DNA of 50,900 bases from contig CAKKQC010000016.1 in NCBI GenBank assembly GCA_919901855.1, positions 1-50,900 of the forward strand, given 5' to 3'. A model generated the notes under the pieces. It was not told the DNA's origin. It made no database searches and was given only the letters and a program-made list of their open reading frames with translations. Shown one piece after another: positions 1,004 to 44,980 of the stretch. The position numbers and the translations under genes were made by a program. Each line of letters begins with the position of its first letter. Positions within the stretch are counted from its first letter, which is position 1. The stretch is from a bacterium (GTDB lineage Bacteria > Oederibacteriota > CAKKQC01).

Positions 1004-1033
1004 AGCTTAGCGGTCGTCGGCCCGGAGGATCAA
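1004..1033 (-). promoter_or_regulatory. Promoter of the DUF6941/antitoxin/toxin operon
   Basis: The -10 box TAAGCT lies at 1004-1009, six bases before the ATG at 997. A -35-like TTGATC lies at 1028-1033, 18 bases further upstream. The spacing would place transcription initiation at or next to the A of the start codon, so the transcript would be leaderless. Confidence 0.55.
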
Positions 1034-1123
1034 GAGGGAAAGGTCCCGGCACGACACTCCGACCGGTACCGCGCGTAAGGTTCGCGGCTTGGCCTTCGCC
1101 AGACCTTGCCGCCGATGCGGCAG

Positions 1124-1129
1124 TAGAAT
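1124..1129 (+). promoter_or_regulatory. Extended -10 box, leaderless start
   Basis: TAGAAT lies six bases before the GTG at 1136, with GGGCGC between. No convincing -35 hexamer was found at 16-18 bases. There is no Shine-Dalgarno sequence before this GTG. Confidence 0.55.
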
Positions 1130-1135
1130 GGGCGC

Positions 1136-1990
1136 GTGAAGCGTCCGGCGATCCGCCGACCGATACGGAAGCTCTACGTCATGACCGATCTCGAGGGCGT
1201 GGCCGGAGTGCTGAACTCCCAGGACTGGTGCCTCGACGACGGCCGGTTCTACGAGCGGGCCAGGGTCCTGCTGACCCTCGAGGTGAACGCCGCCGTCAGG
1301 GGGTTCCTCGCCGGCGGCGTCCTCGAGGTCGTGATCTCGGACGGCCACGGGCCGGGCGGGATCGATCCGGACCTCCTCGACCCCCGCTCGGAGCTCATCC
1401 GCGGCTGGCCGAACGGCTGGCCGCTGGAACTCGACAAGACGTACGACGCCCTCGCGTTCGTGGGCCAGCACGCGAAGGCGAGCTCGCTGGGAGCCCACCT
1501 GTGCCACACGCAGAACATGCAGCACATCGACTTCGCCGTCAACGGCGTCTCCCTTGGCGAGTTCGGCCAGCTCGCCGTCTGCGCGAGCGAGCTGGGCATC
1601 CCCGTGATCTTCGGGTGCGGGGACCTCGCCTTCGCGAAGGAGGCGGAGGCGCTCGTCCCCGGCATCGAGACCGTGGCCGTCAAGCGCGGCGTGCGCCGCG
1701 CCGGTCCCGGAGAGACCCTAGATGACCACGCGTACCGGCAGCACAACGCGGGCGCGATCCACGTCCCGCCCGAGCGGGCGCGCCGGCTCATCGAAGCGGG
1801 CGCGCGCCGGGCGGTCGCCATGGCCGGGACGCGGGGGCCGGGGCTGATCCCGCTGACCCCGCCCTTCGAGCGCGTCGTCGTCCTGAGGCGGCACGAGGGC
1901 CATCCCGCGAGAACGGTCTCGCGGGAACGTCATTCCACCAGCGTCATCGCCCTGCTGAACATGCCCTATCACCCCGAACCAGAGATATAG
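1136..1990 (+). CDS. M55 family D-aminopeptidase (DppA-like), copy 1
   Basis: This 284-residue protein belongs to peptidase family M55, zinc enzymes typified by DppA of Bacillus subtilis, which releases N-terminal D-amino acids from short peptides. The metal ligands are in place: D18 and E20 in MTDLEGVAGV, H71 in SDGHG, H112 in VGQHAKAS and E142 in GEFGQ. Their spacing matches D8, E10, H60, H104 and E133 of DppA. No signal peptide, so cytoplasmic. The GTG start at 1136 is chosen because TAGAAT sits six bases upstream; an internal ATG at codon 16 would remove part of the first strand. A close paralogue follows 18 bases downstream, indicating tandem duplication. Substrate is not known. Confidence 0.92.
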   Translation: MKRPAIRRPIRKLYVMTDLEGVAGVLNSQDWCLDDGRFYERARVLLTLEVNAAVRGFLAGGVLEVVISDGHGPGGIDPDLLDPRSELIRGWPNGWPLELDKTYDALAFVGQHAKASSLGAHLCHTQNMQHIDFAVNGVSLGEFGQLAVCASELGIPVIFGCGDLAFAKEAEALVPGIETVAVKRGVRRAGPGETLDDHAYRQHNAGAIHVPPERARRLIEAGARRAVAMAGTRGPGLIPLTPPFERVVVLRRHEGHPARTVSRERHSTSVIALLNMPYHPEPEI

Positions 1991-1996
1991 AAGGAG

Positions 1997-2002
1997 TACA
2001 AT
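1997..2002 (+). promoter_or_regulatory. -10 box, leaderless start of M55 copy 2
   Basis: TACAAT lies six bases before the ATG at 2009 (spacer CCCACC). A GAAGGAG at 1990-1996 could act as a distant ribosome binding site for read-through mRNA from the first paralogue, so the gene may be translated from both leaderless and leadered messages. Confidence 0.5.
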
Positions 2003-2008
2003 CCCACC

Positions 2009-2839
2009 ATGAAGACCGACCGGATCTACATCATGACCGACCTCGAAGGCGTGGCCGGCGTCGAGAACTTCGAACAGTGGTGCTTCACCAAGGGCCGGTA
2101 CTACGACCGCGCCCGCGCGCTGCTGACGGCCGAGATCAACGCGGCGGTCAAGGGGTTCTTCGCCGGCGGGGCGAAGTCCATCGTCGTCTCCGACGGCCAC
2201 GGCGACGGCGGCGTGGACCCGGAGACGATCGACCCCAAAGTGGAACTGCTCCGGGGCTGGCCGAACGGCTGGCCGCTCGAGCTGGACAAGTCCTTCGACG
2301 CCGTCGCGTTCGTTGGCCAGCACGCGAAAGCCTCGACCGTGGGCGCGCACCTCGCCCACACCCAGAGCCTGCACTGGATCGACTGCACGGTGAACGGCGT
2401 CTCCATCGGCGAGTTCGGCCAGGTAGTCGTCTGCGCGAGCGAGCTCGGCATCCCCGTGATCTTCGGGTGCGGCGACCTCGCGTTCACGAAGGAGGCGCAG
2501 GCGCTCGTCCCCGGCATCGAGACCGTGGCGGTCAAGCGGGGCTTGAGGCAGGACAACGGCATTGACCTCAACGAGCGCGACTACACCCGGCACAACGCCG
2601 GCGCGATCCATGTCCCGCCCGTCCGGGCGCGGAAGCTCATCGAGGCGGGCGCGAAGCGGGCGATGGCGCGGGCGAAGAAGGGCCGGTACGGGATCGTCCC
2701 GCTGAAGGCGCCGTTCGAGCGGGTCGTGACCTACCGGCCGAACGACGAGTTCAAGACGAAGCGGATCTCGCGGGAGACGCACCCGACGAGCGTCATCGGG
2801 GTCCTGAATATGCCGTTCGACCCCAAACCATTGACTTGA
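2009..2839 (+). CDS. M55 family D-aminopeptidase (DppA-like), copy 2
   Basis: This 276-residue protein is a close paralogue of the preceding gene and keeps all M55 metal ligands: D11 and E13 (MTDLEGVAGV), H64 (SDGHG), the VGQHAKAS histidine and the GEFGQ glutamate. The family cleaves peptides with an N-terminal D-residue and acts as a ring-shaped cytosolic complex in DppA. The two copies share long identical stretches (for example GWPNGWPLELDK and VPGIETVAVKRG) but differ near the C-terminus, so they may have different substrates or form a hetero-oligomer; that is inference. The stop overlaps the TTG of the next gene by four bases (TTGA, 2836-2839). Confidence 0.92.
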   Translation: MKTDRIYIMTDLEGVAGVENFEQWCFTKGRYYDRARALLTAEINAAVKGFFAGGAKSIVVSDGHGDGGVDPETIDPKVELLRGWPNGWPLELDKSFDAVAFVGQHAKASTVGAHLAHTQSLHWIDCTVNGVSIGEFGQVVVCASELGIPVIFGCGDLAFTKEAQALVPGIETVAVKRGLRQDNGIDLNERDYTRHNAGAIHVPPVRARKLIEAGAKRAMARAKKGRYGIVPLKAPFERVVTYRPNDEFKTKRISRETHPTSVIGVLNMPFDPKPLT

Positions 2840-4026
2840 GCCCGGACGAGAACGCGTCAACCGACGGGGCCTCCGAAGTCCGCTGGGCCCACCGGGTCCC
2901 GAAGGAACCGATCCGCCGGCTCTACGAGTCCGAGGCGGCCGGAGTGATCGACGAGGCCCTGCTCGACGACGTCGGCACCCGGTTCGCGATGCGGTGCGAG
3001 AGCATCCTCGCCGTCGCGGAGGCCAATCGCGGGATCGTCCGGTGCCCGCGGTGCGACCGCGAAAGCCGCGAGTCCGTGATCCACCGCGACGGCGAGGGAG
3101 CGGAAGAAGAGCCGCTCCGGTGCCCGGCCTGCGGCTGGACGACCACGTGGGGCGCGTACCGCAGGACCTGGACCCGGCGCCAGCTCAGCCAGGGCGCGGC
3201 CGAGTCGGCATTCCGCGGATTCCTGGCACGGTGGAAGGCCGCAAAGATGCCCGCGCAGAAGATGATCGCCGTGGACCAGGTCATCCATGCGTTCCACGCC
3301 TTCCTCATGCGTCACAAGCAGACGGGCGAACGCAGGACCATGCCGACGCGCGCCGTCGCCGTGAACCTGATCGAGGGACGACTCGCCGATGTCATCGAGT
3401 TCCTGGATGGGATCGCGGGCACAGACCGGAAGTCGCCGGACCTGGAGCGGACAGCCGCGGACTGGCGCGCCCGGATCGCGGTCAACCGGACGATCGAATG
3501 GGGCCGGTGGAAGATGGCGGACAAGCCCAGCACGAAGGCCATCCTCATCCGTGACGCGACCGCCTCGGACCTGCCGGTGCTCGACGCCGTGCGTCCGGGC
3601 GACGCGATCCACCGAGACCGGATCCGGGACGCCGACGGAAGGATCCTGCGCTACCTCCTCGTCGAGGCGGGCGGCCTCGTCGTCGGGTTCGGCGTCCTCG
3701 TCCTCGCCCAGCCGTCGTCATGGCCGAAGATGAAGCACTTGCCCCAGATGCTGGACCTGTTCATCCGGCCCGACCTCCGGGGCCACGGCTACGGCAGACT
3801 CCTCATCGCCGCCATGGAACGGATGGCGAAGGACGACGGCCATGACGAGATGCGGCTCGGCGTTGATCCGGAGAAGAACGCGGCCGCAATGCGGCTCTAC
3901 GCCCGGCTGGGCTACGTCCCGATCGACCCGGCCCCCGTCGAGGACCGATGGGAGTTCGTGGACTCCGCCGGTGTCGTCCACCGGGGCGTCGAGATGATCA
4001 TCCACATGCGCAAGCCGCTGGTCTGA
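2836..4026 (+). CDS. Zinc-ribbon domain protein fused to GNAT acetyltransferase
   Basis: This 396-residue protein has two parts. Residues 20-230 carry VPKEPIRRLYESEAAGVIDE and a zinc ribbon with CPRC and CPACGW knuckles about 30 residues apart. This resembles a conserved hypothetical protein found alone in other bacteria. Residues 235-396 form a GNAT N-acetyltransferase fold: IRDATASDLPVLD at the first strand, LDLFIRPDLRGHGYG as the acetyl-CoA-binding motif A (R-x-x-G-x-G), and NAAAMRLYARLGY as motif B. The TTG start overlaps the stop of the M55 gene, so it is translationally coupled to it. The acceptor is unknown. A role in modifying an amino acid or peptide released by the M55 enzymes is inference. 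Confidence 0.8.
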   Translation: MSPDENASTDGASEVRWAHRVPKEPIRRLYESEAAGVIDEALLDDVGTRFAMRCESILAVAEANRGIVRCPRCDRESRESVIHRDGEGAEEEPLRCPACGWTTTWGAYRRTWTRRQLSQGAAESAFRGFLARWKAAKMPAQKMIAVDQVIHAFHAFLMRHKQTGERRTMPTRAVAVNLIEGRLADVIEFLDGIAGTDRKSPDLERTAADWRARIAVNRTIEWGRWKMADKPSTKAILIRDATASDLPVLDAVRPGDAIHRDRIRDADGRILRYLLVEAGGLVVGFGVLVLAQPSSWPKMKHLPQMLDLFIRPDLRGHGYGRLLIAAMERMAKDDGHDEMRLGVDPEKNAAAMRLYARLGYVPIDPAPVEDRWEFVDSAGVVHRGVEMIIHMRKPLV

Positions 4027-4039
4027 CGCGGCCGGCGGG

Positions 4040-5137
4040 TCAGCGGCCCAGGAATTCCCGGCCGAACCGGAGGCCGTGGTCGTAGAGGGCGCGGATGTTG
4101 TCCAGCGGGGTCTCGGGCAGGATCGAGCTGGTCGACGCCAGGGCGAACCCGCCGCCCGGCGCCGCGACCCGGAAACACCGCTCGACATCCCGCCGGACGT
4201 CGTCCGCGGCCCCGAACGGAAGGGTCGTCGTGACCGACACGCTCCCCCAGAGGACGAGCTTGCGCCCCTCGCGCGTCTTCCGTGCCGCCACGCCCTCGAG
4301 CGTGCACCCGGTCTCCTCCTGGAAGCCCTGGAACCCCGCCACCCCGATCCGGTCGACCAGCCGTCCCAAGACCGGCCGCACGTCCCCGTCGCAGTGCCAG
4401 ACGATCCGGATGCCCGCCGCATGCAGGGGCTCGACTGCCCGCGCGAGCGCCGGGAAGTAGAGGCGGTCGAGGGCGTCGAGGGAGCAGATCGGCCCGGCGT
4501 TGAAGCAGATGTCCTGGCCGCCGTAGACGAACGGCGCCAGCCCGTGCTCCGCGACCGCGCGGACGACGGCCAGGTTCGCCAGCCGCCCCTCCTCGGCCGT
4601 GTACGAGAAGTAACGGGCCAGGTGCTCCGGGTACAGGGCCAGCGCCTCGAGGTAGTGGTCGTACCCGAACCTCGTATAACCCCCCATGAAGTCCGACTGC
4701 CCGAAGTCGCCGAGGAAGAGGATGCCGCCCCCCGCCAGCTCGCGGAGTTTCAGGATCGGGCGGGCGTAGGCGTCCGCGGCGGCCCCGGTGTCGAACCCCG
4801 CCGCCAGCGTGGCCGGGTCGGGCAGGGCCTCGATCCAGTCGCGGACGTCCTCGGCGGACGAGAACCGGGGCGCCCCGGCAGGCCCCCCTTCCCCCGGCGC
4901 GAACGGGTCGGCGGCCAGGTGCTCGACCCGCCGGGAGGGCATCACGAACTGCGGGCACAGGTTGGCGCCCGCCCTGAGATAGGCCCCGACCACGGTCGGG
5001 ACGGGGTCCGCGTAGATGTCGTGGCGCCCCGAGAACTCGCGGAAGAACCCGCGATGCATGGCCCACGACGCGAGCAGGCACGGCTCCGCGACCCGTTCCA
5101 GCCACAGGGTCCGCGCCGCCACCTCCTCGCCGTTCAA
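4040..5137 (-). CDS. Uroporphyrinogen decarboxylase superfamily protein, possible Zn-dependent methyltransferase
   Basis: A 365-residue URO-D superfamily TIM-barrel protein. The superfamily includes HemE and the MtaA/CmuA corrinoid methyltransferases, which use a zinc bound by His and Cys. Here IVWHCDGDVRPVL (H248, C249) followed by C278 in ETGCTLEGV fits the zinc-methyltransferase type better than HemE, whose N-terminal substrate arginines are not evident. The TTG start at 5137 overlaps the stop of the APC permease gene (TTGA, 5134-5137), so the two are coupled. The permease may import the substrate; a methylated amine or amino acid is a guess. No corrinoid protein is encoded nearby. Confidence 0.75.
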   Translation of the reverse strand: MNGEEVAARTLWLERVAEPCLLASWAMHRGFFREFSGRHDIYADPVPTVVGAYLRAGANLCPQFVMPSRRVEHLAADPFAPGEGGPAGAPRFSSAEDVRDWIEALPDPATLAAGFDTGAAADAYARPILKLRELAGGGILFLGDFGQSDFMGGYTRFGYDHYLEALALYPEHLARYFSYTAEEGRLANLAVVRAVAEHGLAPFVYGGQDICFNAGPICSLDALDRLYFPALARAVEPLHAAGIRIVWHCDGDVRPVLGRLVDRIGVAGFQGFQEETGCTLEGVAARKTREGRKLVLWGSVSVTTTLPFGAADDVRRDVERCFRVAAPGGGFALASTSSILPETPLDNIRALYDHGLRFGREFLGR

Positions 5138-6441
5138 GGGCGGGCCGCGATCACGCTGAGCCAGTAGCAGACGGGCCCCAGCCCGATGACGATCAGGCTG
5201 AAGACGAGCCCGCTCATGCCGAGGATGGTCTCGGCGTCGGCGCGGACGAAGGACAGGACGATGAGGGCGGTCGGGCCGACGCAGACGGCCACGACACCCC
5301 ACAGGCCCCCCGGAATGCGGTAGGGCCGGCGCAGGCCGGGCTCGCGCACGCGCAGGACCACGAGGGCGGCGAACTCGAGGAGCATCGAGAGCCCCGAGAG
5401 CAGGACGTCGAGGACGACGACGCTCACGAACCCGAGCCCCTGGCAAACCGCCCAGGTGGCTGCGCTTGCGAGCAGGGAGACCACGGGAACGCCGGTCTTC
5501 GGATGCTTCCACGCGAAGATCCGGGGCAGGTATCCGTCCTCGGCCATGACCATGGGCAGGCGGGTCAGCGACAGGACAAGGGCGTTGAACGTTCCCGCGT
5601 TCGCGGCGGCGCCCGCGACCACGACGGCGCCCGCCAGCATCGTGCCGCCGAGCACGCGCGCGATGTCCGCCCAGCCGCCCGTGGACCAGAGGCCGAGGTC
5701 GATCCCGGCCCAGGCACAGGCGGCCACGGGGATCACGTAGCTGAGCGTAACGATCGTGACGCCGCGGAGCATCGTGAGGGGGTAAGTCGTCGCCGGTCGC
5801 TCGACCTCCTCGGCCACCGTCGAGGCGTTGTCCCAGCCCATGTAGTTCCACATCGCCACCATGACCCCGCCGAGCAGGTCCAGACCCCCCGGCGGCGCGG
5901 GCGCGGGACCGGCGACGGGCGCGTGCGCGAGCGCAAGTCCGACGAGGACGACGAACGGGGACAGCACGAGCGCGGTCAGCACCGCGGAGCCCCGCCCGAT
6001 CTCGCGGGCGGGCAGGAGGTTCCAGGCGACGCAGACCGCGATCATGGCCGATCCGACCGCGACCGGCCACCACCCCTGACCGAGCACGGGAAACAACCGG
6101 GCGAGGTACGCGGCGAAAAGCGTTGGGTAGATGGCCATGTCGAACATGCTCCCGGCCAGGCTCAACCACGCCTCCTGGTAGCCCCAGAACGGCCCCATCG
6201 CCCGGCGGACCCAGGCGTAGAATCCGCCCTCCTTCGGGATCGCGCTCGCGAGTTCGCTCACCATGAGCCCGGTCGGAATGGCCCAGACCAGGGGGGTCAC
6301 GATCAGGATGAACATGGCGGCGGCGTACCCGCCCGCCTTCCCGACGATGTCCTCGAGCCCGTAGGGACCTCCGGCGACGATGCAGTACGTGGCCGCGAGC
6401 AGGCCGAGGGCCGTTAGCTTGGTGGGGCGGCCCCGTCGCAC
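5134..6441 (-). CDS. APC family amino acid permease
   Basis: This 435-residue integral membrane protein has about twelve hydrophobic segments and the APC hallmark near the N-terminus (IVAGGPYGLEDIVGKAGG, where related transporters have GGPYGIE). This is followed by PTGLMVSELASAIPKEGGFY, the second-helix motif of the superfamily. It would import amino acids or related amines across the inner membrane with protons or by exchange. It begins with GTG at 6441, seven bases after the stop of the small upstream gene, and its end is coupled to the URO-D-like enzyme. Substrate cannot be read from sequence. Confidence 0.9.
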   Translation of the reverse strand: MRRGRPTKLTALGLLAATYCIVAGGPYGLEDIVGKAGGYAAAMFILIVTPLVWAIPTGLMVSELASAIPKEGGFYAWVRRAMGPFWGYQEAWLSLAGSMFDMAIYPTLFAAYLARLFPVLGQGWWPVAVGSAMIAVCVAWNLLPAREIGRGSAVLTALVLSPFVVLVGLALAHAPVAGPAPAPPGGLDLLGGVMVAMWNYMGWDNASTVAEEVERPATTYPLTMLRGVTIVTLSYVIPVAACAWAGIDLGLWSTGGWADIARVLGGTMLAGAVVVAGAAANAGTFNALVLSLTRLPMVMAEDGYLPRIFAWKHPKTGVPVVSLLASAATWAVCQGLGFVSVVVLDVLLSGLSMLLEFAALVVLRVREPGLRRPYRIPGGLWGVVAVCVGPTALIVLSFVRADAETILGMSGLVFSLIVIGLGPVCYWLSVIAARP

Positions 6442-6448
6442 CGGGGCG

Positions 6449-6688
6449 TCAGCCCTGGGGCGCAGGCTTAGCCGGGGCGGCCCGGCCGACCCAGTCCTCG
6501 ATCGCCTTGGCGATGGAGACCAGTTGCTTCGGGGTCATCCGCTTGACCGGGAACCGGCCGCCCGCCATCGAGATCGCGACCTTGAGGTCGCCGCCGTCAT
6601 AGGACTTCAGCGACGCCGTGAACTTCTGCCCATCCACGTCGACTTCCCGGTTTTCCAGCTCAACATCCTTGGCCGCATCGTATGGCAT
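6449..6688 (-). CDS. Small conserved-looking protein of unknown function
   Basis: A 79-residue soluble protein with start ATG at 6688 chosen because AGGTGGAGGG lies just upstream. It has two or three predicted strands (VDVDGQKFTASLKSYDGG, LKVAISMAGGRFPVKR), one helix (MTPKQLVSIAKAIEDWV) and an Ala/Pro tail. The strand-strand-helix order faintly recalls PC4-like single-strand binding proteins, but I see no diagnostic residues. It is the first gene of the operon with the APC permease (7-bp gap) and the URO-D-like enzyme. Confidence 0.65.
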   Translation of the reverse strand: MPYDAAKDVELENREVDVDGQKFTASLKSYDGGDLKVAISMAGGRFPVKRMTPKQLVSIAKAIEDWVGRAAPAKPAPQG

Positions 6689-6734
6689 ATTCCCTCCACC
6701 TTTCCCTACATCTGCGTTTCGTTGTATGCGGAAT

Positions 6735-7367
6735 TCAGGATACCCCGCGCGCCCTCCCCCGCGCCATACCGTGATTCCCCGTCCTCCCACGTTCGCTTCC
6801 CGCCGGCCCCTCACTCCCGCTGGTACCCTTGTCGATGTCGAAACCAATGCGCCGGTGAGGCGGATCGGGAGGCGGCAGTAGTAGCGGGCGTATCTGCCGG
6901 TAGAGATCCCGAAGCGCCGAATCGTGCTCGATGAGGTTCTTCTCTATGAACGACAGGCGCTTCTCCATCGTCACGCGCGACAGCAATTCCCGCCGCATGC
7001 GTAGGAAGGTGCGAACCACGAAGAGACTCATATGAACCGCGCGGGGACTGTTCAGGACGGTAGCTGCCATGAGCGCACCGTGCTCGGTGAACACCCGCGG
7101 CGGCTATCGCCTGCCACCGTGGGAACTTGATATTCCAAATTGGAATATCAAGTTCTCAAACTCCTTGCCAGTCAACACGAAAGAGAAGTACCCCGGGAAC
7201 CGATCCATGTTCCGACCGACAGCCTTGTTGAAGTTCCCAGTCGTCACCCCGTATAGCGATGCCAAGTCGCTGTCCAGAACCACATGGATCCCCCGGACGG
7301 TGAAGATGCGGACATCCGGCTTCGCCTTCGCAGTCACCTCGGCCGCCGCTACCGTGTTCTGGTTCAC
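6735..7367 (-). pseudogene. ORF6N domain protein interrupted by one in-frame TAG
   Basis: A single reading frame of 210 codons is broken only by TAG at 7104-7106. Before it lies a complete ORF6N N-terminal half (VRIFTVRGIHVVLDSDLASL, then NFNKAVGRNMDRFPGYF and HGGRR). After it, in the same frame, lies the rest (VFTEHGALMAATVLNSPRA, a helical linker, and PPDPPHRRIGF). Family members usually have Tyr after GGRR, so TAC to TAG by one base change explains the break. ORF6N domains are DNA-binding modules common in phages and mobile regions. The GTG start at 7367 has AGGAGG seven bases upstream. Calling it a pseudogene assumes no suppression; TAG is an ordinary stop elsewhere in the window. Confidence 0.75.
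7123..7155. repeat. Perfect 33-bp palindrome inside the ORF6N gene
   Basis: Two 16-base arms flank a single central base: left arm 7123-7138, centre 7139, right arm 7140-7155. It is AT-rich in a GC-rich surrounding, codes for NLIFQFGISSS of the ORF6N protein, and ends about 16 bases from the premature TAG. It could be an operator, a recombination site or a coincidence of codons. Confidence 0.8.
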
Positions 7368-7568
7368 GGGCCCCTCCTGATTCAACAGTACCGCTTCCAG
7401 CGCCGACCGAAAGATGGAAACCGGGCGGTTTGCCACGGTGTGGGCAAGGAGACCTGGGCGCTCCGCCATTCCGGAGCTCCGAAGCGATGCCCCCACGCCC
7501 TCCGCCGGAAGGTGGCCGCAATTCGCGACCACCTCCTCCTTCTCGGCGAGGGGACTGGACACTCCCAT

Positions 7569-7574
7569 TACAAT
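7569..7574 (+). promoter_or_regulatory. -10 box, leaderless start of DUF559-like gene
   Basis: TACAAT lies six bases before the GTG at 7581 (spacer GGGGTC). No Shine-Dalgarno sequence and no clear -35 were found. Confidence 0.5.
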
Positions 7575-7580
7575 GGGGTC

Positions 7581-12566: not shown

Positions 12567-12572
12567 ATCATA
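12567..12572 (-). promoter_or_regulatory. -10 box of the small membrane protein gene
   Basis: TATGAT lies nine bases before the ATG at 12557. It is only five bases from the opposing TAGAGT box at 12578-12583, so the two divergent promoters overlap and polymerase could bind only one at a time. Confidence 0.45.
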
Positions 12573-12577: not shown

Positions 12578-12583
12578 TAGAGT
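12578..12583 (+). promoter_or_regulatory. -10 box, leaderless start of DegT gene
   Basis: TAGAGT lies six bases before the ATG at 12590 (spacer ACCCGC), with no Shine-Dalgarno sequence. Confidence 0.5.
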
Positions 12584-17590: not shown

Positions 17591-17596
17591 TACCCT
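17591..17596 (+). promoter_or_regulatory. -10 box, leaderless start of first esterase
   Basis: TACCCT lies six bases before the ATG at 17603 (spacer AGCCCC). A weak CTGACG 19 bases further upstream (17566-17571) could serve as -35. Confidence 0.45.
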
Positions 17597-24978: not shown

Positions 24979-25712
24979 GACAGCCCCATCCTACGCCGGA
25001 GGACTTCGGCGAGGAGCAGGATGAGGACGACGACCATGAGCGGACGGATGATCCGGGCGCCCTGTTTCACGGCCAGCATCGACCCCAGCAGGTTCCCCGC
25101 GATCCCGGCGCCCGCCGCCCAGAGCGCCAGCGGGAAGACGACCCGGCCGCTCCAGAGAAAGACCGCGACGCCCCCGACGTTGCTCGCGAGGTTCGCCAAC
25201 CGGGCGTTCGCGGAGGCCGTCAGGAGGTCGAACCCGAGGACCGCCGCGAACGCGATCGTGAGGAAGGTGCCGGTGCCGGGCCCGAAGAACCCGTCGTAGC
25301 ACCCGATCACAGCGCCGATCGCGAGCGAGGCCGCGTGCCTGCCGGCTGTCCCCCGCGGACGCCACCGGACCAGGTGCCGCTTCGGCATCCGGTCATGCAC
25401 GAGGAAGAAGACGAGGACCAGGGGCACCAGCACGAGCATGATCGCGTTGATCGTCGGGGCCGGGACCAGGAGCGCGGCCTGCGCGCCGGCGGCGGAGCCC
25501 GCCAGCGCCCCGGCGGCGGCGAAGAGTCCGATCCGGACCCGGACCGTACCGGCATGCCAATACCGGGCCACGGCAGTGAAAGTCCCGCACGAGCTCGAGA
25601 ACTTGTTCGTCGCCAGCGCCGCGTGCGGCGGCAGGCCGAAGGCGAGATAGGCGGGGAGCGAGATCAGTCCTCCGCCGCCCGCGATCGAGTCCACGAATCC
25701 GGCCACTCCCAC
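24969..25712 (-). CDS. TSUP family exporter (TauE/SafE-like)
   Basis: A 247-residue membrane protein of the TSUP family, which moves sulfite, sulfoacetate or other organosulfur anions out of the cell. The first signature GFVDSIAGGGGLISLPA and the repeat signature GCYDGFFGPGTGTFLTI are both present, with about seven hydrophobic segments. The GTG at 25712 gives an N-terminus about ten residues short for the first helix. The frame stays open upstream through EVAVICALVGV, and a CTG at 25739 preceded by GAGGT would complete the helix, so the real start may be that CTG. It lies between the CehA-like gene and the transglutaminase-like gene in the same operon. Confidence 0.88.
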   Translation of the reverse strand: MGVAGFVDSIAGGGGLISLPAYLAFGLPPHAALATNKFSSSCGTFTAVARYWHAGTVRVRIGLFAAAGALAGSAAGAQAALLVPAPTINAIMLVLVPLVLVFFLVHDRMPKRHLVRWRPRGTAGRHAASLAIGAVIGCYDGFFGPGTGTFLTIAFAAVLGFDLLTASANARLANLASNVGGVAVFLWSGRVVFPLALWAAGAGIAGNLLGSMLAVKQGARIIRPLMVVVLILLLAEVLRRRMGLSWP

Positions 25713-25744: not shown

Positions 25745-28270
25745 CTACCTCAGCGTCGGGTGGTTATGGAACACGCCCCGGGCGTGGAGGCGGTTGTGCA
25801 GGCTCCGGTGGGCGGAGACGAGCAGGCGGTGCATCCGCCGGTAGTCCCGGGTCTCGGCCCGCGTCCCGATCGTGTCGAGGAAGGCCAGCGACCCCGCGAT
25901 CTGGTCCAGGATCGTGTCTGCATCCGCCGCCGCGAGGAACGGCGTGCCCGCGACCTCGGCCATGACCGGACTCGTGTGCGCGGCGATGATCTCGGGCTTG
26001 CCCGCGTACCGCCCCCGAACGAGCAGGGCGATCCAGGACGACCGGTCCACGCGCACGCGGAACCGCCCCCCGCCCGCGGCCGGGTCGACGGCCATGCTCT
26101 CCCGGATCTCGCCGTTCACCATGAGCTCGACCCGGGTCAGGGGCGCCATGACCGACGCCACGCGCCACTCGACATCGAATGTGCCGCCCGTGCGACCGAG
26201 CCTGACCCGGGACCCCGCCGGGCGGCCGTCGACCGAGAACTCGATCAGGGGGCCGTACGTGACGAACGTCTCGCCGCGCCGGACCGCCCCGACCCAGGCC
26301 TCGTAGGTGAAGGGCTGTCCCGCCTCGAGCTTCGCGTAGGTCCGAACCGTCCCCGCCGCCGTCGTCGTCGCCATCTTGTCCGTCCCGCCCACGGCGGCGA
26401 CAAAGTAGCCGCAGTTGAGGTACCGGTACCAGTCCGAGAGCGAGTAGGGGTCGAGGCCGCCCCAGAGGTTCTGCCAGCTCGTCATCTCGATGCCGTCCAC
26501 GCGCCCCAGCACGATCGCGGCCGCGTGCTCGGCGCGGGGATTGGGAAAGTGCGGGAGCACGACGAGCCCGCCCTGCTTGCGGCACTGCGCCGCCCACTCC
26601 GAGAGCAGGACCTCGACCGGATCGCCCAGCGCGGACTCGTCCGGCCCCCCGGTCGTCATCGGGGCGATGACCCGGCCGCGGTAGCCGAGGAGCGAGATGT
26701 GGCCGAGCACGTGCTGGCGGTTCTCGGTCCCGACCCGGACCAGGTGCTCGCCGTCGCCCCCGGCCCCCTTCGCCCCCCACGTAGTCTTCCCGTCGAAGTC
26801 GCCCGCGTTCGTCATCAGCTCGCCCCATTGGCTGGCGAGCAGGTTGATGACGTTGAGCCCCTCCCCCGCCGCCTCGAGAATGCCCGTAACCGGTGAGAGG
26901 AAGTGGACGTGGGTGTCGGCCGTGACCCATCCCTTCTCCCGCCAGCGCAGGACCTTGTCCAGCGGGATCGTGACCTTCCGGGTGCCCGAGCCGACGCGGA
27001 CGCGGAGACGTCGGGGCCGGACCTCGAACCCGCGGCTCACCTCGATGAAGACGTCGCCGCACGGCAGATCGAGCACGGTCTCGCCCGGGATGTAGGTGCC
27101 CGGCAGGGCCCCGTCGTGGATCACGTCCGTCGAGTAGTCCTCGAACCAGGCCGGGTTCGGAATCCGGTGCCGGTCCGCTGGCGCCAGGTACTCGCCGGCG
27201 GCGCCGTGCACGTGGAGTTTGACTGCGACCGGCCGCCCGGTGGCCCGGTCCACGATGCGGAGCTCGACCCGCTGGCGCGCCGGGTGTACGACGGCGACGT
27301 CCGGCACCCGGCGCGGGGTGACGGGCACCGTCCGGCCGCCCGTGAAATGGAACCGGGCCTCCGGGTGCGCGGCGAACTCGATCAGGATCTCGCGATCCGA
27401 TGCGGGAGCGCCCGAGCGGTGGAGACCGCGCTCCCAGCTCCCGTTCGGGTAGAGCCGGCGCGGCTCGGCCCGAATCACGACCCCGAGATCCACCTCGATC
27501 CCGCCGAGCCGGCCCGGCCACGCCAGTTTGGGGTCGAACTTCTCCCCCGGCGCCATCCTCCAGATCATCTTCCGCCGCCGCTCCCAGCGCAGGGGATGCG
27601 AGCGCACCCGGCCCGCGGAGACGGCGTAGAGGACGACGGCGCCGGTCACCGGGACGAGCCGGAGTCCGGTCACGGGAACGCCGGGCCGCGGATTCCTCCA
27701 CGCCCAGAGGTACGTACCGAACTCCCACGCCTCGCCGCTCGAGGCGCGCGTCTGGCTCCACCCCCAGCCACCTCCGTCCTGCTCGTGGTTCGCGGCGACC
27801 GGGTGCGGCTTCGCCGCCGGGACCGCGTCAAAGCACTGCTCGCCCCAGGGATGGCGGAAGGCCCCGACCTCGCGGCGGCGCCGGACCGGGAGCGTCTCCT
27901 CGCTCCCGTCGGCGCGCAGCACGACGTAGTCCGCCGCGTGCTCGCCCAGGTGGCCGTGTCCCGTGGATGCCCGGATGAACCCGGACACGTCGCGATCGAG
28001 CGGCACGGTATCCGACGTGTGCAGGAAGACGAGCCACGTAGCCCGGACGGCCCGGCATCGCAACGTGACGGGAGTCCTCGACACGACCGCCGGCCGACGG
28101 ACCCGGAACGGGATCCCGTGATAGACGCACGCGCCCGAGGGCGCCTGGGGTGCCGCCCCGGCCAGCTCCTGCGAGACGAGGTCCCCCGGGAGGAGACCGG
28201 GAGCCCTCGAGCCGGTCAAGGCAACCGGGCGGAAGAGCGGGGAGGCGGGACCATCCCGGAACGAAGGCAT
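25745..28270 (-). CDS. CehA/McbA-type metallohydrolase (PHP domain)
   Basis: An 841-residue protein whose C-terminal half resembles the CehA/McbA carbaryl-hydrolase family of PHP metallohydrolases. The metal-site motif GWVTADTHVHFLSP begins the catalytic domain near residue 455, with later GLVVLPHFPNP and NCGYFVAAVGGTDK contributing His and Asp ligands. The first 400 residues are beta-rich. No signal peptide is evident. It is the first gene of the TSUP/transglutaminase/ceramidase operon. TAGAAT six bases before the ATG at 28270 marks a leaderless start. Known relatives hydrolyse esters or amides; the substrate here is unknown. Confidence 0.8.
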   Translation of the reverse strand: MPSFRDGPASPLFRPVALTGSRAPGLLPGDLVSQELAGAAPQAPSGACVYHGIPFRVRRPAVVSRTPVTLRCRAVRATWLVFLHTSDTVPLDRDVSGFIRASTGHGHLGEHAADYVVLRADGSEETLPVRRRREVGAFRHPWGEQCFDAVPAAKPHPVAANHEQDGGGWGWSQTRASSGEAWEFGTYLWAWRNPRPGVPVTGLRLVPVTGAVVLYAVSAGRVRSHPLRWERRRKMIWRMAPGEKFDPKLAWPGRLGGIEVDLGVVIRAEPRRLYPNGSWERGLHRSGAPASDREILIEFAAHPEARFHFTGGRTVPVTPRRVPDVAVVHPARQRVELRIVDRATGRPVAVKLHVHGAAGEYLAPADRHRIPNPAWFEDYSTDVIHDGALPGTYIPGETVLDLPCGDVFIEVSRGFEVRPRRLRVRVGSGTRKVTIPLDKVLRWREKGWVTADTHVHFLSPVTGILEAAGEGLNVINLLASQWGELMTNAGDFDGKTTWGAKGAGGDGEHLVRVGTENRQHVLGHISLLGYRGRVIAPMTTGGPDESALGDPVEVLLSEWAAQCRKQGGLVVLPHFPNPRAEHAAAIVLGRVDGIEMTSWQNLWGGLDPYSLSDWYRYLNCGYFVAAVGGTDKMATTTAAGTVRTYAKLEAGQPFTYEAWVGAVRRGETFVTYGPLIEFSVDGRPAGSRVRLGRTGGTFDVEWRVASVMAPLTRVELMVNGEIRESMAVDPAAGGGRFRVRVDRSSWIALLVRGRYAGKPEIIAAHTSPVMAEVAGTPFLAAADADTILDQIAGSLAFLDTIGTRAETRDYRRMHRLLVSAHRSLHNRLHARGVFHNHPTLR

Positions 28271-28276: not shown

Positions 28277-28282
28277 ATTCTA
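28277..28282 (-). promoter_or_regulatory. -10 box, leaderless start of CehA-like operon
   Basis: TAGAAT lies six bases before the ATG at 28270 (spacer GGCGCA). No convincing -35 was found. Confidence 0.5.
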
Positions 28283-28443: not shown

Positions 28444-28494
28444 CGGGCTGGGGGAGGAGCCTGGCATCAGGGACATGAGGGGGATCATATCGGG

Positions 28495-39617: not shown

Positions 39618-40033
39618 CGGCCGTGCGCCCCCGGCAGCGGACCTGGGGGGCCCATCCCCGCGGGCCCGGACTGGCGGTGGCGCGCATCCCACTTCTTCTC
39701 GAGCTCGCGGTACCGCTCCACCTGGTCCGGCGTCAGGATCTTCTCGATCTCCCGCGAGGCCTCCTTCCGGATCGCCTCGAACTTCGGGCCGACGTCCCGG
39801 CGCAGGCGCATGATCCGGTGGTGGGTCTTCTCGAGGATCGCGGTCAGTTTCTCCCGTTGCCCGGCATCGAGTTTGAGCTGCCGGCTGACCCGGTCGACCA
39901 TGAGCGCGGTACGATCCCCGCCGCGACGCGGGTGCGGAAACCCCCAGCGGGGCGCGTGCAGGCCGAGGGCGAGGCCGGCCGCGAGCCCGACCGCGAGCGC
40001 CCAGACCAGGTGCGACCAGCCGAACTTCCTCAT
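39614..40033 (-). CDS. Spy/CpxP-like periplasmic protein
   Basis: A 139-residue protein with an N-terminal membrane anchor or signal (VWALAVGLAAGLALGL), then a helical region with the two LTxxQ-type elements of the Spy/CpxP family: LKLDAGQREKLTAILEKTH and KILTPDQVERYRELEKKWD. These periplasmic proteins act as chaperones or sensors of envelope stress or metals. The tail is Gly/Pro-rich. ATG at 40033 overlaps the anti-sigma stop. The location between anti-sigma factor and efflux genes supports a stress-response role. Confidence 0.85.
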   Translation of the reverse strand: MRKFGWSHLVWALAVGLAAGLALGLHAPRWGFPHPRRGGDRTALMVDRVSRQLKLDAGQREKLTAILEKTHHRIMRLRRDVGPKFEAIRKEASREIEKILTPDQVERYRELEKKWDARHRQSGPAGMGPPGPLPGAHGR

Positions 40034-40476
40034 GACTCCTCCTCCACGAGCATCCCGAGCACCTGGTCGTGCGTCGGCACTTCGGAGCTTTCAATGGTCC
40101 GGTAGCTGTCCGCAATCTCGCGGTCGCCGACCTCGAGCAGTTCGGAGGCCGCGGTCTCCCCGTTCCCCGTCGAGAGGCCCAGCACGACCAGGATGCTGGC
40201 GGCCGCGAATCCCGCCGCCAGGGTCGGCATCACCCACCGGACGCCCGTCGGCGCCTCCTCGGCCGCGATCCGTTCCATGACGGTCCGGACGAAGGCGTCG
40301 GACGGCTGGGCGCGCACGAGCCCGGAGAGCGACCGGGCCCGGGCGGCTTGATCGTCGAGCACGGCCCGGCAGGACGAACAGGTTTCAAGATGACCGGCGA
40401 TCTCGCGCGCCACCCCCGCGGGCAGTTCGCCGTCGCGATACTCATCCAGCCGGTTCACCACGTCCCCGTGTTCCAT
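40030..40476 (-). CDS. Zinc-binding anti-sigma factor (zf-HC2)
   Basis: A 148-residue anti-sigma factor with the ZAS motif H29-x3-C33-x2-C36 (GHLETCSSC) in the N-terminal sigma-binding domain, one transmembrane segment (about 81-103) and a short periplasmic tail. It would hold the adjacent ECF sigma factor inactive until an envelope or redox signal. It starts 18 bases after the sigma gene, the usual order. Confidence 0.9.
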   Translation of the reverse strand: MEHGDVVNRLDEYRDGELPAGVAREIAGHLETCSSCRAVLDDQAARARSLSGLVRAQPSDAFVRTVMERIAAEEAPTGVRWVMPTLAAGFAAASILVVLGLSTGNGETAASELLEVGDREIADSYRTIESSEVPTHDQVLGMLVEEES

Positions 40477-40494
40477 CGGGCCTCCTTCTGTGTG

Positions 40495-41076
40495 TTAGAC
40501 GTCTGGGACCGTACGTTCGTGTCGAGCCGCATCCCGCACCGCCTCCCGGGCACGCTTGAGTTTCGCCCGCACCGAATCCTCAGTCGTATCCAGCGTTTCC
40601 GCGATCTCGACGTAGCTCAATCCTTCGACTTCCCGGAGCACGAGGATCTCGCGCCAGCCGGCCGGCAGGCCCCCCAGCAGATCCCGGAGGCTGTCCCGGG
40701 CGTCCGTTCCCCTGGTGGTGGCGTCCGCCGGGCCCGCCGCCTCGACCGGCTCCCGTCCCCCCAGCGTCTCGACCAGCCCATCCCACGAGAGCCACCGGCG
40801 CTTTGAGCGCGCGCGGGAAATATCCCGGCAGTGGTTGATCGCGATCCGGTGGAGCCAGGTCGAGAACGCGGCGTCGCCGCGGAACCGGCCGAGCGCCTGC
40901 CACGCCTTCACGAACACCTCCTGCGCCGCGTCCTCGGCCTCGACGGGGTCCAGAAGGATCCCGGCCGCCAGCCGGCGGATATTCACTTCATGGAGCCGCA
41001 CGAGCGCCCCGAATGCGTCCCGGTCCCCCTGGCGGGCCCGGTTGATCAGGGCGGTCTCGTCGTCGGTGGCCGTCAT
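40495..41076 (-). CDS. ECF-type RNA polymerase sigma factor
   Basis: A 193-residue sigma-70 family factor with region 2 (LVRLHEVNIRRLAAGILLDP, then AEDAAQEVFVKAWQAL and FSTWLHRIAINHCRD) and region 4 (LPAGWREILVLREVEGLSYV, then EIAETLDTTEDSVRAKLKRA). It lacks regions 1.1 and 3, as ECF factors do. It is followed by its anti-sigma factor and by the Spy-TolC-MacA-MacB genes it likely controls. The ATG at 41076 has GGGGGGG upstream and starts one base after the methyltransferase stop. Confidence 0.93.
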   Translation of the reverse strand: MTATDDETALINRARQGDRDAFGALVRLHEVNIRRLAAGILLDPVEAEDAAQEVFVKAWQALGRFRGDAAFSTWLHRIAINHCRDISRARSKRRWLSWDGLVETLGGREPVEAAGPADATTRGTDARDSLRDLLGGLPAGWREILVLREVEGLSYVEIAETLDTTEDSVRAKLKRAREAVRDAARHERTVPDV

Positions 41077-41077
41077 G

Positions 41078-41848
41078 TCACCCCCCCGTCCGGCGCAGGG
41101 CAACCTGAAGACGGGTCGCGGCGTCGAGACGGGCCAGCGGCCGGCCGAGGTTCCACTCGTCCCACCAGCCGACGAGCTCGAACGACCCCGACTCGCGGAC
41201 CAGCGCCAGGAACTCGTCCGGGTAGACCGCGCGGCGGCGGGAGACCCCGCGGATCGTCTCGGCGCGACCGTGATCGTCGATCTCGAACACCACGGTCTCG
41301 TCGAAGGTTCTTTCCGGCTCGTCCACGTTCGTCCAGGCGACCGCCGCCCGCACCCGGACGCCATCCCGGGCGACCTCCCACCGGTGCTCCCCCGGCCGGA
41401 GTTCGACGTTCTGGATGCACCAGTCGAGGAGATAGAGCCCGCCGGGCCGGAGCACGCCCGCGACCGACGCCAGGTTCCCGGCCACCCCCGCCAAGTCGCG
41501 CACGTAGAGCGAGTTCATGGCGATGAAGGCGAAGTCGAACGGGCCCGGCATCGCGAACCCCGCGAGGTCGCCCTCGAGGAAGGCCGTCGTCAGTCCCAGC
41601 GCCGCCGCGCGCCTGCGGCCAAAGTCGAGCATCGCCGGGCCCGAGTCCAGCCCCGTGTACGCGTACCCGCGCCGGGCCAGCTCCGGCAGGTGCGGGCCGG
41701 TGCCGCACCCGACGTCGAGCACCGTGCGGACCGGAATCCGCGAATGCTCCCGGATGCACGCCTCGATCCCGTCCACCTCCCGCCGCAGGTCCCGGAACGC
41801 GAACGCGACGTCGCACGCGAGGGCGTGGTCGTATATGCCGCCGGTCAT
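41078..41848 (-). CDS. Class I SAM-dependent methyltransferase
   Basis: A 256-residue methyltransferase. It has VLDVGCGTGPHLPELARRG (motif I), GLDSGPAMLDFGRRR (motif post I), FDFAFIAMNSLYVR (motif II) and LRPGGLYLLDW (motif III). The C-terminal half is beta-rich and probably sets substrate choice; the acceptor is unknown. The ATG at 41848 overlaps the stop of the upstream glycosidase-like gene (ATGA) and its end lies one base before the sigma-factor gene, so its expression is tied to both. Confidence 0.88.
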   Translation of the reverse strand: MTGGIYDHALACDVAFAFRDLRREVDGIEACIREHSRIPVRTVLDVGCGTGPHLPELARRGYAYTGLDSGPAMLDFGRRRAAALGLTTAFLEGDLAGFAMPGPFDFAFIAMNSLYVRDLAGVAGNLASVAGVLRPGGLYLLDWCIQNVELRPGEHRWEVARDGVRVRAAVAWTNVDEPERTFDETVVFEIDDHGRAETIRGVSRRRAVYPDEFLALVRESGSFELVGWWDEWNLGRPLARLDAATRLQVALRRTGG

Positions 41849-44052
41849 TGGTCCGCTGGCGTGTAGGATGCGGTCGCGCCGTTCCACCGCGATATGACGG
41901 TCCCGGCTGGCACCGGGAGCCCGCCCGCGACAGCCGGGCTCTTGCCGAAATTGGCCACGATCTCGGTGCCGTCGGCGAAGACGGTCTTCTGGACGAGCCG
42001 GTCTTCGGAGAGCCACCGGAAGTCCGTCATGGCGGTGGTCGCCAGCCGCCGGTGGAGCGGGGAGAAGAACCGGTAGTGGGCGACCACCCGCTCGCGCTGC
42101 CTCGTGAACTCGTCCACGGTGAAGTGGTAGAGCGGCGGGACGTTGTAGAGCTGTTCGAGGAGGGCCATCGTCGCGAAGGTGCCCTTGAACTTCAGGCTCG
42201 GCGTCCCCCAGTGATGGGTCGTGATCACGGAATCGTGGAACACGACCTGGTAGAGCGGCAGGCGGAACCGGGGGTCGCAGAACCGCCGGACGTACTTCGG
42301 CTTGATCGGCGCCACCTTGAAGAAGACCTCGGGACACTCCGGAGGCCACCAGCCGCCCAGGTTGTACTTCGACTTGTCGTTCTCGAGATCCGGATCGTCC
42401 CAGGCGCCGATCGCGGGGGTAAGAACCCCGTGGCCGTAGTGGACGGCGACCGCGGCCAGGGCGGATCCGCCCTCGGAGCCGACCGGCAATCCGTAGGTCC
42501 GCGCGATCCAGCGCATCCGGTCGATCCGGTTGGCCACATCCTGCGCCTGGGTCCCCGGATGCGAGGGGTTGTAGTCGTCGAACCACTGGCCGGCGGCGTC
42601 GCAGTCGACGAACCACGCCGAGAATGGGATGGCCGCCATCTTCCCCCCCACGCGCTTCTCGACCCACGGCCGGGCGGCCCGGGAGTTCAGCCAGCGACCC
42701 TTGCCGCCGAATCCGCGCGTCAATGACCCGTCCGCGCGCATGATGCCGCCGGTCGCGAAGAGTTCGGCGTCGAACTGGGCCGTGTCCGACGTGTCCACCT
42801 GGCCCGGGCGGTGCACGCTGTCGTAGGAGTCGTACGGGGCGTAAAGGTACCCCATCTCCTCGGCGGCCCTGGCCACCTCGGGCTTGCCGTCACCGGAGTT
42901 CAGGTCGCCGAGGGTCAGGCACGCGCGATCGATCCCGGTCGCACCGAGCATCTTGAGGAACCTGACCGAGATGCCGCCGCCCCAATCCGGCGCGGGAGCC
43001 AGCAGTCCCGGGAATACCTCGATCACTTGCTCCGGCGTGAGGACCCCCTGGGAGATCAGGTCGGAGAAGGCTCGGGTGACCTCGGACTTGAGGTAGTCGT
43101 ACTTCCACTCGTCCGCGAGGAGATTCCGGACGGCCTTCTGCCCGGCGGGAGGCAGCCGGGCCCACAGGCGCCCGGCGGCCGAGTCCGCCGCCGCCTCGGG
43201 CAACCCGGCCAGCCGGCGGATGAACCCGTCCCAATCCTCGACGTCGCCGATCTCGAACGGGAGGCCCCACAGGTAGGCCTGCAGCGCGCCGGGAAGGCGT
43301 TCGGCGCGTGGCGTCTGCCGAATCTTGTCCGCCATGGAGACGAACCCGCCCTGCTGGACCAGCCAGGCCCGGTACTGGCGCGCGGGCTCGACGGGCGATG
43401 GCCCGCCGATCCGCACTATCAGCCCGTAGACCTTCTCCGCGTCCAGCCGCGTGAACTCGTGCGTGATCCGGAGTCCAAAACGGCCGTCGCGCCGGGTGTA
43501 CGTCAGCGCGCAGTTGAACGGGTTCGGCAGGATGTACGTGAAGGTGCCCCCGCGGAGCGCAAGCCCCCAGCATGGCAGGGAAAACTCCTCGGTGACCGTG
43601 TACTCGTTCTCGGGGTCCCCGGCCAGATCCTGGAGCCACCCCGCATCGTCCACCGGCACCCAGTTGCCCTCGCCCCGGGGCAGGATGAGCGCCTCGATGT
43701 TCTTCCCCGGCGCGACGATGGGCCACGCCAGCTTGGCCGTCCGGTCGGACTTGAGCCCGATCGTGATGTCGTTGCCCTCGATCCGGATCCGGGCGTCCAA
43801 CCCCCGTGACGCCAGCGTCCAGTGGGCCGACGCGCCGTCCTGTTCGAGGATCTTCGCGGGGCCGAGACCCGACTGGCCGTCCGAGACCAGGACCGACGTC
43901 CCGACGTCGGAGACGGCCTCGACCCGGAGCGTGCCGGGGTCGACGCGGATGGTCCATCCGCCCGCCCGGAGCGCGATCGTCTGCGCCGCCGGTGCCCACT
44001 GGGGAATGGCCATCCCAGCCACGAAGACTACGAGGAGGGCACGTCTACCCAC
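41845..44052 (-). CDS. Secreted glycoside-hydrolase-like protein
   Basis: A 735-residue exported protein with a signal peptide (residues 1-23). Residues 25-230 form a beta-sandwich. From about 270 to 620 a TIM-barrel-like region includes GIDRACLTLGDLNSGDGKPE, LYAPYDSYDSVH, WFVDCDAAGQWFDDYNPSHP and GLPVGSEGGSALAAV. The D-x-D and E near strand ends are candidate catalytic residues, and the pattern recalls GH101-related proteins. The C-terminal 90 residues form a beta domain. Exact family and substrate are uncertain. It heads the eight-gene stress operon. TATCAT six bases before the GTG at 44052 fixes the start. Confidence 0.7.
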   Translation of the reverse strand: MGRRALLVVFVAGMAIPQWAPAAQTIALRAGGWTIRVDPGTLRVEAVSDVGTSVLVSDGQSGLGPAKILEQDGASAHWTLASRGLDARIRIEGNDITIGLKSDRTAKLAWPIVAPGKNIEALILPRGEGNWVPVDDAGWLQDLAGDPENEYTVTEEFSLPCWGLALRGGTFTYILPNPFNCALTYTRRDGRFGLRITHEFTRLDAEKVYGLIVRIGGPSPVEPARQYRAWLVQQGGFVSMADKIRQTPRAERLPGALQAYLWGLPFEIGDVEDWDGFIRRLAGLPEAAADSAAGRLWARLPPAGQKAVRNLLADEWKYDYLKSEVTRAFSDLISQGVLTPEQVIEVFPGLLAPAPDWGGGISVRFLKMLGATGIDRACLTLGDLNSGDGKPEVARAAEEMGYLYAPYDSYDSVHRPGQVDTSDTAQFDAELFATGGIMRADGSLTRGFGGKGRWLNSRAARPWVEKRVGGKMAAIPFSAWFVDCDAAGQWFDDYNPSHPGTQAQDVANRIDRMRWIARTYGLPVGSEGGSALAAVAVHYGHGVLTPAIGAWDDPDLENDKSKYNLGGWWPPECPEVFFKVAPIKPKYVRRFCDPRFRLPLYQVVFHDSVITTHHWGTPSLKFKGTFATMALLEQLYNVPPLYHFTVDEFTRQRERVVAHYRFFSPLHRRLATTAMTDFRWLSEDRLVQKTVFADGTEIVANFGKSPAVAGGLPVPAGTVISRWNGATASYTPADQ

Positions 44053-44058
44053 GGCTCA

Positions 44059-44064
44059 ATGATA
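44059..44064 (-). promoter_or_regulatory. -10 box, leaderless start of the eight-gene operon
   Basis: TATCAT lies six bases before the GTG at 44052 (spacer TGAGCC). No Shine-Dalgarno sequence and no clear -35. Confidence 0.5.
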
Positions 44065-44122
44065 TGCGAATCCCGGGGTCAGGACGGGGAGTTGCAGGAC
44101 GTCAGGATATGGACCCTCGACC

Positions 44123-44467
44123 TCATCGGCCCAGGATGACGTCCAGGCCGGCAAACAACAGGCCAAGCTGGGCGCGGGAGATGCGACCGACCCGTCCCGT
44201 GAGACAAGCCCGGTCGACCGCCACAATCTGGGAAAGGTTCGCGACCGAATCCTTCGGCAGGCCGGTGACCCGCGAGGGCAGGAGCAGGTTCCCGGGAGCC
44301 TCCGCCCACTTGAGGTTACTCGTCAGGGGCACGCACACGACCGTCGCGAGACGACTGCGGTTCAACGCGTCGCCCTGGAGAACCACGACCGGACGCCGGA
44401 ATCCCGGGCCGGACCCTTCGGGCGCGGGCAGATCGGCCCAGCAAACGTCTCCCTGCGAGATCACCAT
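44123..44467 (-). CDS. MazF/PemK-like toxin
   Basis: A 114-residue MazF-family endoribonuclease. It begins QGDVCWADLPAP (GDIVWVDLxP family pattern), followed by FRRPVVVLQGDALNRSRLAT and VVCVPLTSNLKWAEAPGNLL, with SVANLSQIVAVDRACLTGRV at the end, all matching the fold core. Such toxins cut mRNA and are held by the antitoxin encoded just upstream. The ATG at 44467 overlaps the antitoxin stop by seven bases. Confidence 0.93.
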   Translation of the reverse strand: MVISQGDVCWADLPAPEGSGPGFRRPVVVLQGDALNRSRLATVVCVPLTSNLKWAEAPGNLLLPSRVTGLPKDSVANLSQIVAVDRACLTGRVGRISRAQLGLLFAGLDVILGR

Positions 44468-44697
44468 TCGGTTCGAGCGAGAATCCTGCGCGAGGCCGCC
44501 CGAGTGAACGGGTCCGCGCGACCCCCCACCTGCGCCGCGACCCGGTTCATGGCCTCCGTCACCGCGTCACCATCGTGTCGGAGAACGTACTCGGCCACGG
44601 CCTCCCGGTAAACTGCACTTCGCGATTTCCGGAGATGCCGCGCCAGCCGGTCGGCCTCATGGAATACCGCGTCGGGAAGCGATATCGCTGTTTTCAT
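44461..44697 (-). CDS. Ribbon-helix-helix antitoxin (MazE/CopG-like)
   Basis: A 78-residue protein with an N-terminal ribbon-helix-helix: strand MKTAISLPDAVFHEADRLAR followed by KSRSAVYREAVAEYVLRH. The C-terminal part (VTEAMNRVAAQVGGRADPF and onward) should wrap the toxin. It would bind the palindrome over its own promoter. The ATG at 44697 is fixed by TATACT six bases upstream. Confidence 0.92.
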   Translation of the reverse strand: MKTAISLPDAVFHEADRLARHLRKSRSAVYREAVAEYVLRHDGDAVTEAMNRVAAQVGGRADPFTRAASRRILARTEW

Positions 44698-44699
44698 AC

Positions 44700-44732
44700 C
44701 AGTAGTATAACTACTGATTCCGGCGGTATCAA
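44700..44732 (-). promoter_or_regulatory. Promoter and palindromic operator of the MazEF-type module
   Basis: The -35 TTGATA (44727-44732), 17-base spacer and -10 TATACT (44704-44709) form a strong sigma-70-type promoter with the ATG six bases on. A perfect palindrome CAGTAGT-ATA-ACTACTG (44700-44716) covers the -10 box and is the likely binding site of the RHH antitoxin for autoregulation. Confidence 0.8.
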
Positions 44733-44757
44733 GCAAGCCAGCCCGAATCCCTACTGC

Positions 44758-44946
44758 TCAATGCGTTCGGCGTTGAATGACCCGAACGACTCTCTGGAGG
44801 CTTGCTGTGTCTCCATGCAGGGCCCGGCGGAGGATCTCGACCGCAGAAACGCGTTCGGCCGGGGAACGAGTTTGCCAGTACTCCCGGTCCGCGCGATCCG
44901 CCGCCGGATCGCCAAGGGCATGCGTGGTGACGACTCTCTCGATCAC
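44758..44946 (-). CDS. Small protein of unknown function
   Basis: A 62-residue protein with the pattern DREYWQTRSPAERVSAVEIL and QRVVRVIQRR. Similar small proteins (xxWxSRxPxERLxAVExLR) occur next to nucleotidyltransferase and other two-gene modules in bacteria, but no partner is adjacent here; the MazEF-type module lies 60 bases downstream on the same strand. GTG at 44946 follows TACAAT by six bases. Confidence 0.65.
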   Translation of the reverse strand: MIERVVTTHALGDPAADRADREYWQTRSPAERVSAVEILRRALHGDTASLQRVVRVIQRRTH

Positions 44947-44952
44947 AACTCT

Positions 44953-44980
44953 ATTGTACCGCCGCGGCTCACGCTGTCAG
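44953..44980 (-). promoter_or_regulatory. Promoter of the 62-residue gene, leaderless
   Basis: TACAAT (44953-44958) lies six bases before the GTG and CTGACA (44975-44980) lies 16 bases further upstream. Confidence 0.6.

Follow-up and report, generated by a model that had tools for sequence, protein, structure and literature searches.

Fixed-distance TANNNT boxes before AUG and GUG start codons point to leaderless expression in a bacterial lineage

Candidate -10 boxes in the window

The window, which is the whole of the 50,900-nucleotide contig C16, belongs to a parent assembly of 4.68 Mb in 91 contigs from a GC-rich bacterium. It carries genes whose start codons are closely preceded by a TANNNT hexamer, read here as a candidate promoter -10 box. 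These boxes, together with one copy of a dispersed repeat, are as follows.

1004..1009 (-): candidate -10 box TAAGCT, 6 bases before ATG 997(-); DUF6941 protein, 608-997
1076..1125 (+): copy of a dispersed 50-base palindromic repeat with TA at both ends; its 3' TA begins the box of the gene at 1136
1124..1129 (+): candidate box TAGAAT, 6 bases before GTG 1136; M55 D-aminopeptidase; the TA is the repeat's last two bases
1997..2002 (+): candidate box TACAAT, 6 bases before ATG 2009; second M55 D-aminopeptidase
7569..7574 (+): candidate box TACAAT, 6 bases before GTG 7581, which is not the most upstream start; REase_MTES_1575/DUF559 domain
12567..12572 (-): candidate box TATGAT, 9 bases before ATG 12557(-); 136-aa protein; second spacing class
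12578..12583 (+): candidate box TAGAGT, 6 bases before ATG 12590; DegT-type aminotransferase
17591..17596 (+): candidate box TACCCT, 6 bases before ATG 17603; esterase
24988..24993 (-): candidate box TAGGAT, 9 bases before ATG 24978(-); 851-aa protein with F5/8 type C domain; not noticed in the first-pass annotation; second spacing class
28277..28282 (-): candidate box TAGAAT, 6 bases before ATG 28270(-); CehA/McbA-type metallohydrolase
44059..44064 (-): candidate box TATCAT, 6 bases before GTG 44052(-); GH129-type glycosidase
44704..44709 (-): candidate box TATACT, 6 bases before ATG 44697(-); ribbon-helix-helix antitoxin of a MazEF-like pair
44953..44958 (-): candidate box TACAAT, 6 bases before GTG 44946(-); 62-aa ORF of no family

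Read directly from the sequence, all ten starts named by the first-pass annotation have the hexamer and an exact six-base spacer, and eight of them are indeed the most upstream start codon of their frame, as it had claimed; the exceptions are 7581, whose frame opens at 7284, and 44697, where a TTG lies at 44736. The annotation had also assigned Shine-Dalgarno (SD) sequences to six other starts. These are clear at 6688(-), 7367(-), 12001(-), 15640(-) and 32567(-), but weak at 50356(-), where the sequence is AAGGGG. The annotation's own estimate was that such boxes should precede well under 1% of starts by chance. In our counts, 6 of the 10,591 in-frame start codons in the deep interior of genes have TANNNT at spacer 6, as against 38 among the 2,401 candidates close to a gene 5' end (735 kb), and genome-wide the effect far exceeds chance. 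The six-base spacer, proposed as exact, describes those ten starts but not the genome, where spacers 6, 7 and 9 dominate and spacer 6 is no more frequent than 7 or 9. The six-base class is over-represented in the window, partly because the genes were chosen for displaying that spacing.

Three other arrangements lie beside these boxes. The two M55 D-aminopeptidase genes form an adjacent pair (1136-2839, +) with 18 bases between them and a six-base-spaced box each. The MazEF-like pair (44123-44697, -) joins the antitoxin to a PemK/MazF toxin, with the box 6 bases before the antitoxin start. A TATGAT-N7-ATG at 28474-28489 (-), which precedes the gene at 28270(-) in a different reading frame, is either a chance match or a small candidate leaderless ORF.

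Spacing and start codons across the genome

Genome-wide counts cover 1.53 of the 4.68 Mb of the parent genome. About 1,190 genes were called with a simple home-made caller trained on this 1.53 Mb; its choice of start is uncertain, and all in-frame starts near gene 5' ends were taken as candidates, with the spacer length from box to start codon denoted d. The enrichment of TANNNT at -7 to -12 that the first-pass annotation expected genome-wide is present and is sharp at the predicted spacing. In called genes of the 1.53 Mb, TANNNT precedes ATG 44, 67, 25, 54 and 23 times at d6 to d10 (background of about 10), and before GTG it peaks at d6 alone (32 versus a background of about 5). TTG shows no TANNNT peak in the same genes, with a count of 0 at d6, and the control hexamers TANNNA, TGNNNT and AANNNT show no comparable spike there. 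Gene-call-free counts on both strands of the 1.53 Mb agree with this profile: TANNAT precedes ATG 44, 68, 22, 53 and 29 times at spacers 6-10 (background of about 11), and GTG 39 times at spacer 6 only (background of about 13). The start codons of the box class are consequently AUG or GUG and not UUG, which is the rule for leaderless initiation.

For boxes at spacer 6, C immediately precedes the start codon in 71% of ATG and 59% of GTG cases, which would make the first base of the start codon box+7 and the expected purine-after-pyrimidine initiator. Because 55% of SD-led starts likewise have C at -1, this base on its own argues only weakly for initiation there. There is no clear -35 consensus upstream of the boxes, and some boxes could therefore be due to chance.

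A second spacing class

Boxes at spacers 9-11 differ from the others in the sequence that follows them. A purine stands at -3 in 79, 78 and 75% of starts at spacers 9, 10 and 11 (70/89 together), compared with 300/549 (55%) of starts without a box (p=1.5e-5); at the comparison spacers, it is found in 66 of 111 starts at 6-7 and in 46% at 12. GTG is absent from the 9-11-base class. The purine at -3 implies a three-base leader, and the simplest reading is that transcription at these spacers most likely begins at -3. Part of the box class would then most likely have a three-base leader rather than none.

A rather doubtful explanation of the 9-base class is that start sites in a leaderless system simply scatter, without forming a distinct three-base-leader class. 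In its favour, leaderless sets mapped in other organisms allow for 1-5 additional bases (PMC4983044 and PMC3898074 apply a window of up to 5), and the same-family genome G001 supplies only 11 spacer-9-class cases, in 7 of which inspection by eye shows a purine at -3. Scatter does not predict that d9 exceeds d8 by over 2:1 in gene-call-free counts, or that the purine at -3 is kept at d9, d10 and d11 but not at d12, following the start codon and not the box. Plasmids of Deinococcus deserti and D. gobiensis, 1.10 Mb in all, went through the same pipeline as a positive control. They gave the known leaderless signal, with ATG counts of 28 and 25 at spacers 6 and 7 and a GTG count of 19 at spacer 6, without purine enrichment at -3 for spacers 9-10 (8/21; difference p=8e-4), which also counts against scatter.

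Boxes at genes that need a promoter

We compared box frequencies at spacers 6-10 (6-7 only for GTG) with a null in which the same test is shifted upstream. A box precedes 43.7% of divergent genes versus 7.4% in the shifted control (n=238), and 7.8% of operon-internal genes versus 1.2% (n=539); boxes are thus concentrated at genes that need their own promoter. Among genes that are divergent or stand 80 or more bases from their same-strand neighbour, box and SD are nearly mutually exclusive (odds ratio 0.10, p=2.6e-10), and both are present in 5/448. Once the shifted null is subtracted from the box frequencies, simple arithmetic puts leaderless or nearly leaderless genes at about 39% of the divergent set and at about 16% of the genes overall. 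By the same null, roughly one in six boxes at divergent and operon-internal genes would be a chance box, and this share is higher where a same-strand upstream gene stands at least 25 bases away. The anti-SD tail and S1 are intact, consistent with two coexisting initiation classes; this also led us to reject the loss of either one as the cause of the leaderless genes.

The boxes could also be real promoters of mRNAs with ordinary leaders, translated from a later in-frame initiation codon. Start calls are uncertain, and the caller favours starts some codons off at 28270 and 44052, yet the spacing is phased to the base with ATG and GTG and not with TTG, and box genes have no SD near the start, which makes downstream starts very unlikely. 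A chance or compositional origin is scarcely credible: TAA and TAG stop codons of upstream genes fit the pattern and starts lie in locally AT-richer DNA, but the boxes are strongest in divergent genes, which have no same-strand upstream gene, the control hexamers lack a matching spike, and a spike so sharp in spacing and so dependent on the start codon already refutes it; together with the SD exclusion, the context frequencies exclude an origin of the boxes in upstream stop codons or in composition.

Distribution among relatives

The parent genome was compared with 39 other genomes of its phylum, of which only G001 is of the same family. Whole-genome counts of TANNAT-N7-ATG against the same pattern at spacer 15 are 181/44 in the parent and 80/33 in G001, while the ratio of spacer 7 to spacer 15 is near 1.4 in most other genomes and reaches 2.4 in G018. 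The G001 contigs were partly chosen from lists of pattern matches, which biases its gene-called d7 and GTG counts; the whole-genome counts are unbiased. Such counts are indecisive for the AT-richer relatives, and genes were therefore called in samples of G017, G018, G007 and G020, from three other families. No spike was found in the called genes of these small stretches (31-117 genes each). The leaderless signature is strong in both family members and may be a lineage-specific gain whose cause could be studied.

Among the loci compared by rpoB, the closest named matches (Krumholzibacteriia, Omnitrophota, a Hyphomicrobiales MAG and Ignavibacteriales) are no nearer than the same-phylum relatives and their alignments are about 30 to 70 columns longer, so that none was adopted as the phylum.

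A palindromic element and a fused RNA polymerase paralogue

The repeat that abuts the gene at 1136 has the consensus TA-A[G/C]G...C[C/G]TTGCCGCCGAAGCGGCGG-TA, with copies at 1076-1125 (+) of the window, L064-L083 and L160-L186. Its arms covary: the outer helix swaps G-C for C-G in 7/16 sequences, and the 3' hairpin has compensated stem variants. A covariance model finds 26 matches in the parent genome, of which about 20 are strong; G001, of the same family, yields no match, and Rfam gives none at gathering thresholds. Listed copies with an intact 5' arm have TA at both ends, apart from one that ends in TG. In nine examined copies, the upstream gene's stop codon starts with the element's 5' TA; in nine, the 3' TA contributes to a TANNNT immediately ahead of a coding sequence. 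If the element inserts at TA dinucleotides, both positions would follow, and it may be a tiny mobile palindrome with that target.

Elsewhere in the parent genome, G000:C28:354-3407 (L029:354-3407 +) encodes a chain of about 1,018 aa that contains Rpb2 domains 3 and 6 and the Rpb1 catalytic domain (NGDFDGD). From its predicted domains, the product is a paralogue of RNA polymerase in which minimal beta and beta' parts are fused; normal rpoB and rpoC are present as well. Among the matches listed from other genomes, plasmids and phages there are only partial RNA polymerase gene matches and none that spans the full chain, and no relative was found in viral contigs.

Discussion

We consider it very probable, from the sequence evidence, that the boxes are promoter -10 elements that give rise to leaderless or three-base-leader mRNAs, beside genes that are SD-led or coupled. 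The first-pass annotation's proposal of leaderless transcription as a main mode of expression is well supported by the spacing, the concentration at promoter-needing genes, the SD exclusion and the start-codon rule. Transcription starts and the mode of translation are here predictions from the position and enrichment of the boxes, the codon rule, the SD exclusion and the sharing with the same-family genome.

In the mechanism that we propose, the boxes would be -10 elements of primary-sigma-type promoters, at which RNA polymerase would start on the start codon itself. The resulting leaderless mRNAs would begin with AUG or GUG, and 70S ribosomes would initiate on them without SD pairing. The same promoters placed about 3 bases further back (spacers 9-11) would yield purine-N-N-AUG mRNAs, with AUG only. 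Genes without a box would rely on an SD, or on translation coupled to the upstream gene. Two translation-initiation modes would then coexist in this genome, as predicted from the box and SD classes.

Whether the lineage uses two discrete registers that depend on the mRNA 5' end, one leaderless with AUG or GUG and the other an AUG-only three-base leader of the form purine-N-N-AUG, with leaders of 1-2 bases rarer, we judge to be evenly balanced. If so, the in-frame spacing of 0 or 3 bases would suggest that the ribosome seats the mRNA 5' end in the P site or else one codon behind it, in the E site. If confirmed, the three-base class would offer a direct test of 5'-end measuring by the ribosome. 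An unstudied lineage here joins those with abundant leaderless genes, and start-site annotation in such genomes should rely on the -10 box. The three-base-leader class is possibly a new feature; the leaderless genes are otherwise of a known kind, found here in a new lineage.

TANNNT is a known signal of leaderless genes (PMC3160421, PMC12340547 and PMC3898074), and PMC3160421 defines a TA-like signal class of bacterial leaderless genes. The present genome shows the features of that class: TANNNT about 12 bases upstream above chance, no SD, promoter-needing genes, and AUG or GUG starts. In Haloferax volcanii, as here, 0 to 5 extra bases are tolerated and AUG is accompanied by a minority of GUG; unlike here, the promoter is archaeal, zero extra bases are mostly found, and the available text of PMC4983044 does not mention a three-base mode. 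Deinococcus-Thermus (PMC3160421, PMC12340547) shares coexisting SD genes and a TANNNT some 12 bases upstream, with ATG at d6-7 and GTG at d6, but the Deinococcus plasmids have neither a second peak at d9-10 nor the purine at -3. The available text on Mycobacterium (PMC3898074, PMC4633059) does not describe a three-base class, and 5' ends were mapped there, whereas ours are inferred from sequence. Otherwise, the mycobacterial system described in these sources resembles ours, with TANNNT lacking a clear -35 and ATG and GTG starts but not TTG. Reporter assays gave the same AUG/GUG-only rule (PMC4633059), and the toxin-antitoxin genes of M. tuberculosis are largely leaderless (PMC3898074), like the MazEF-like pair in the window.
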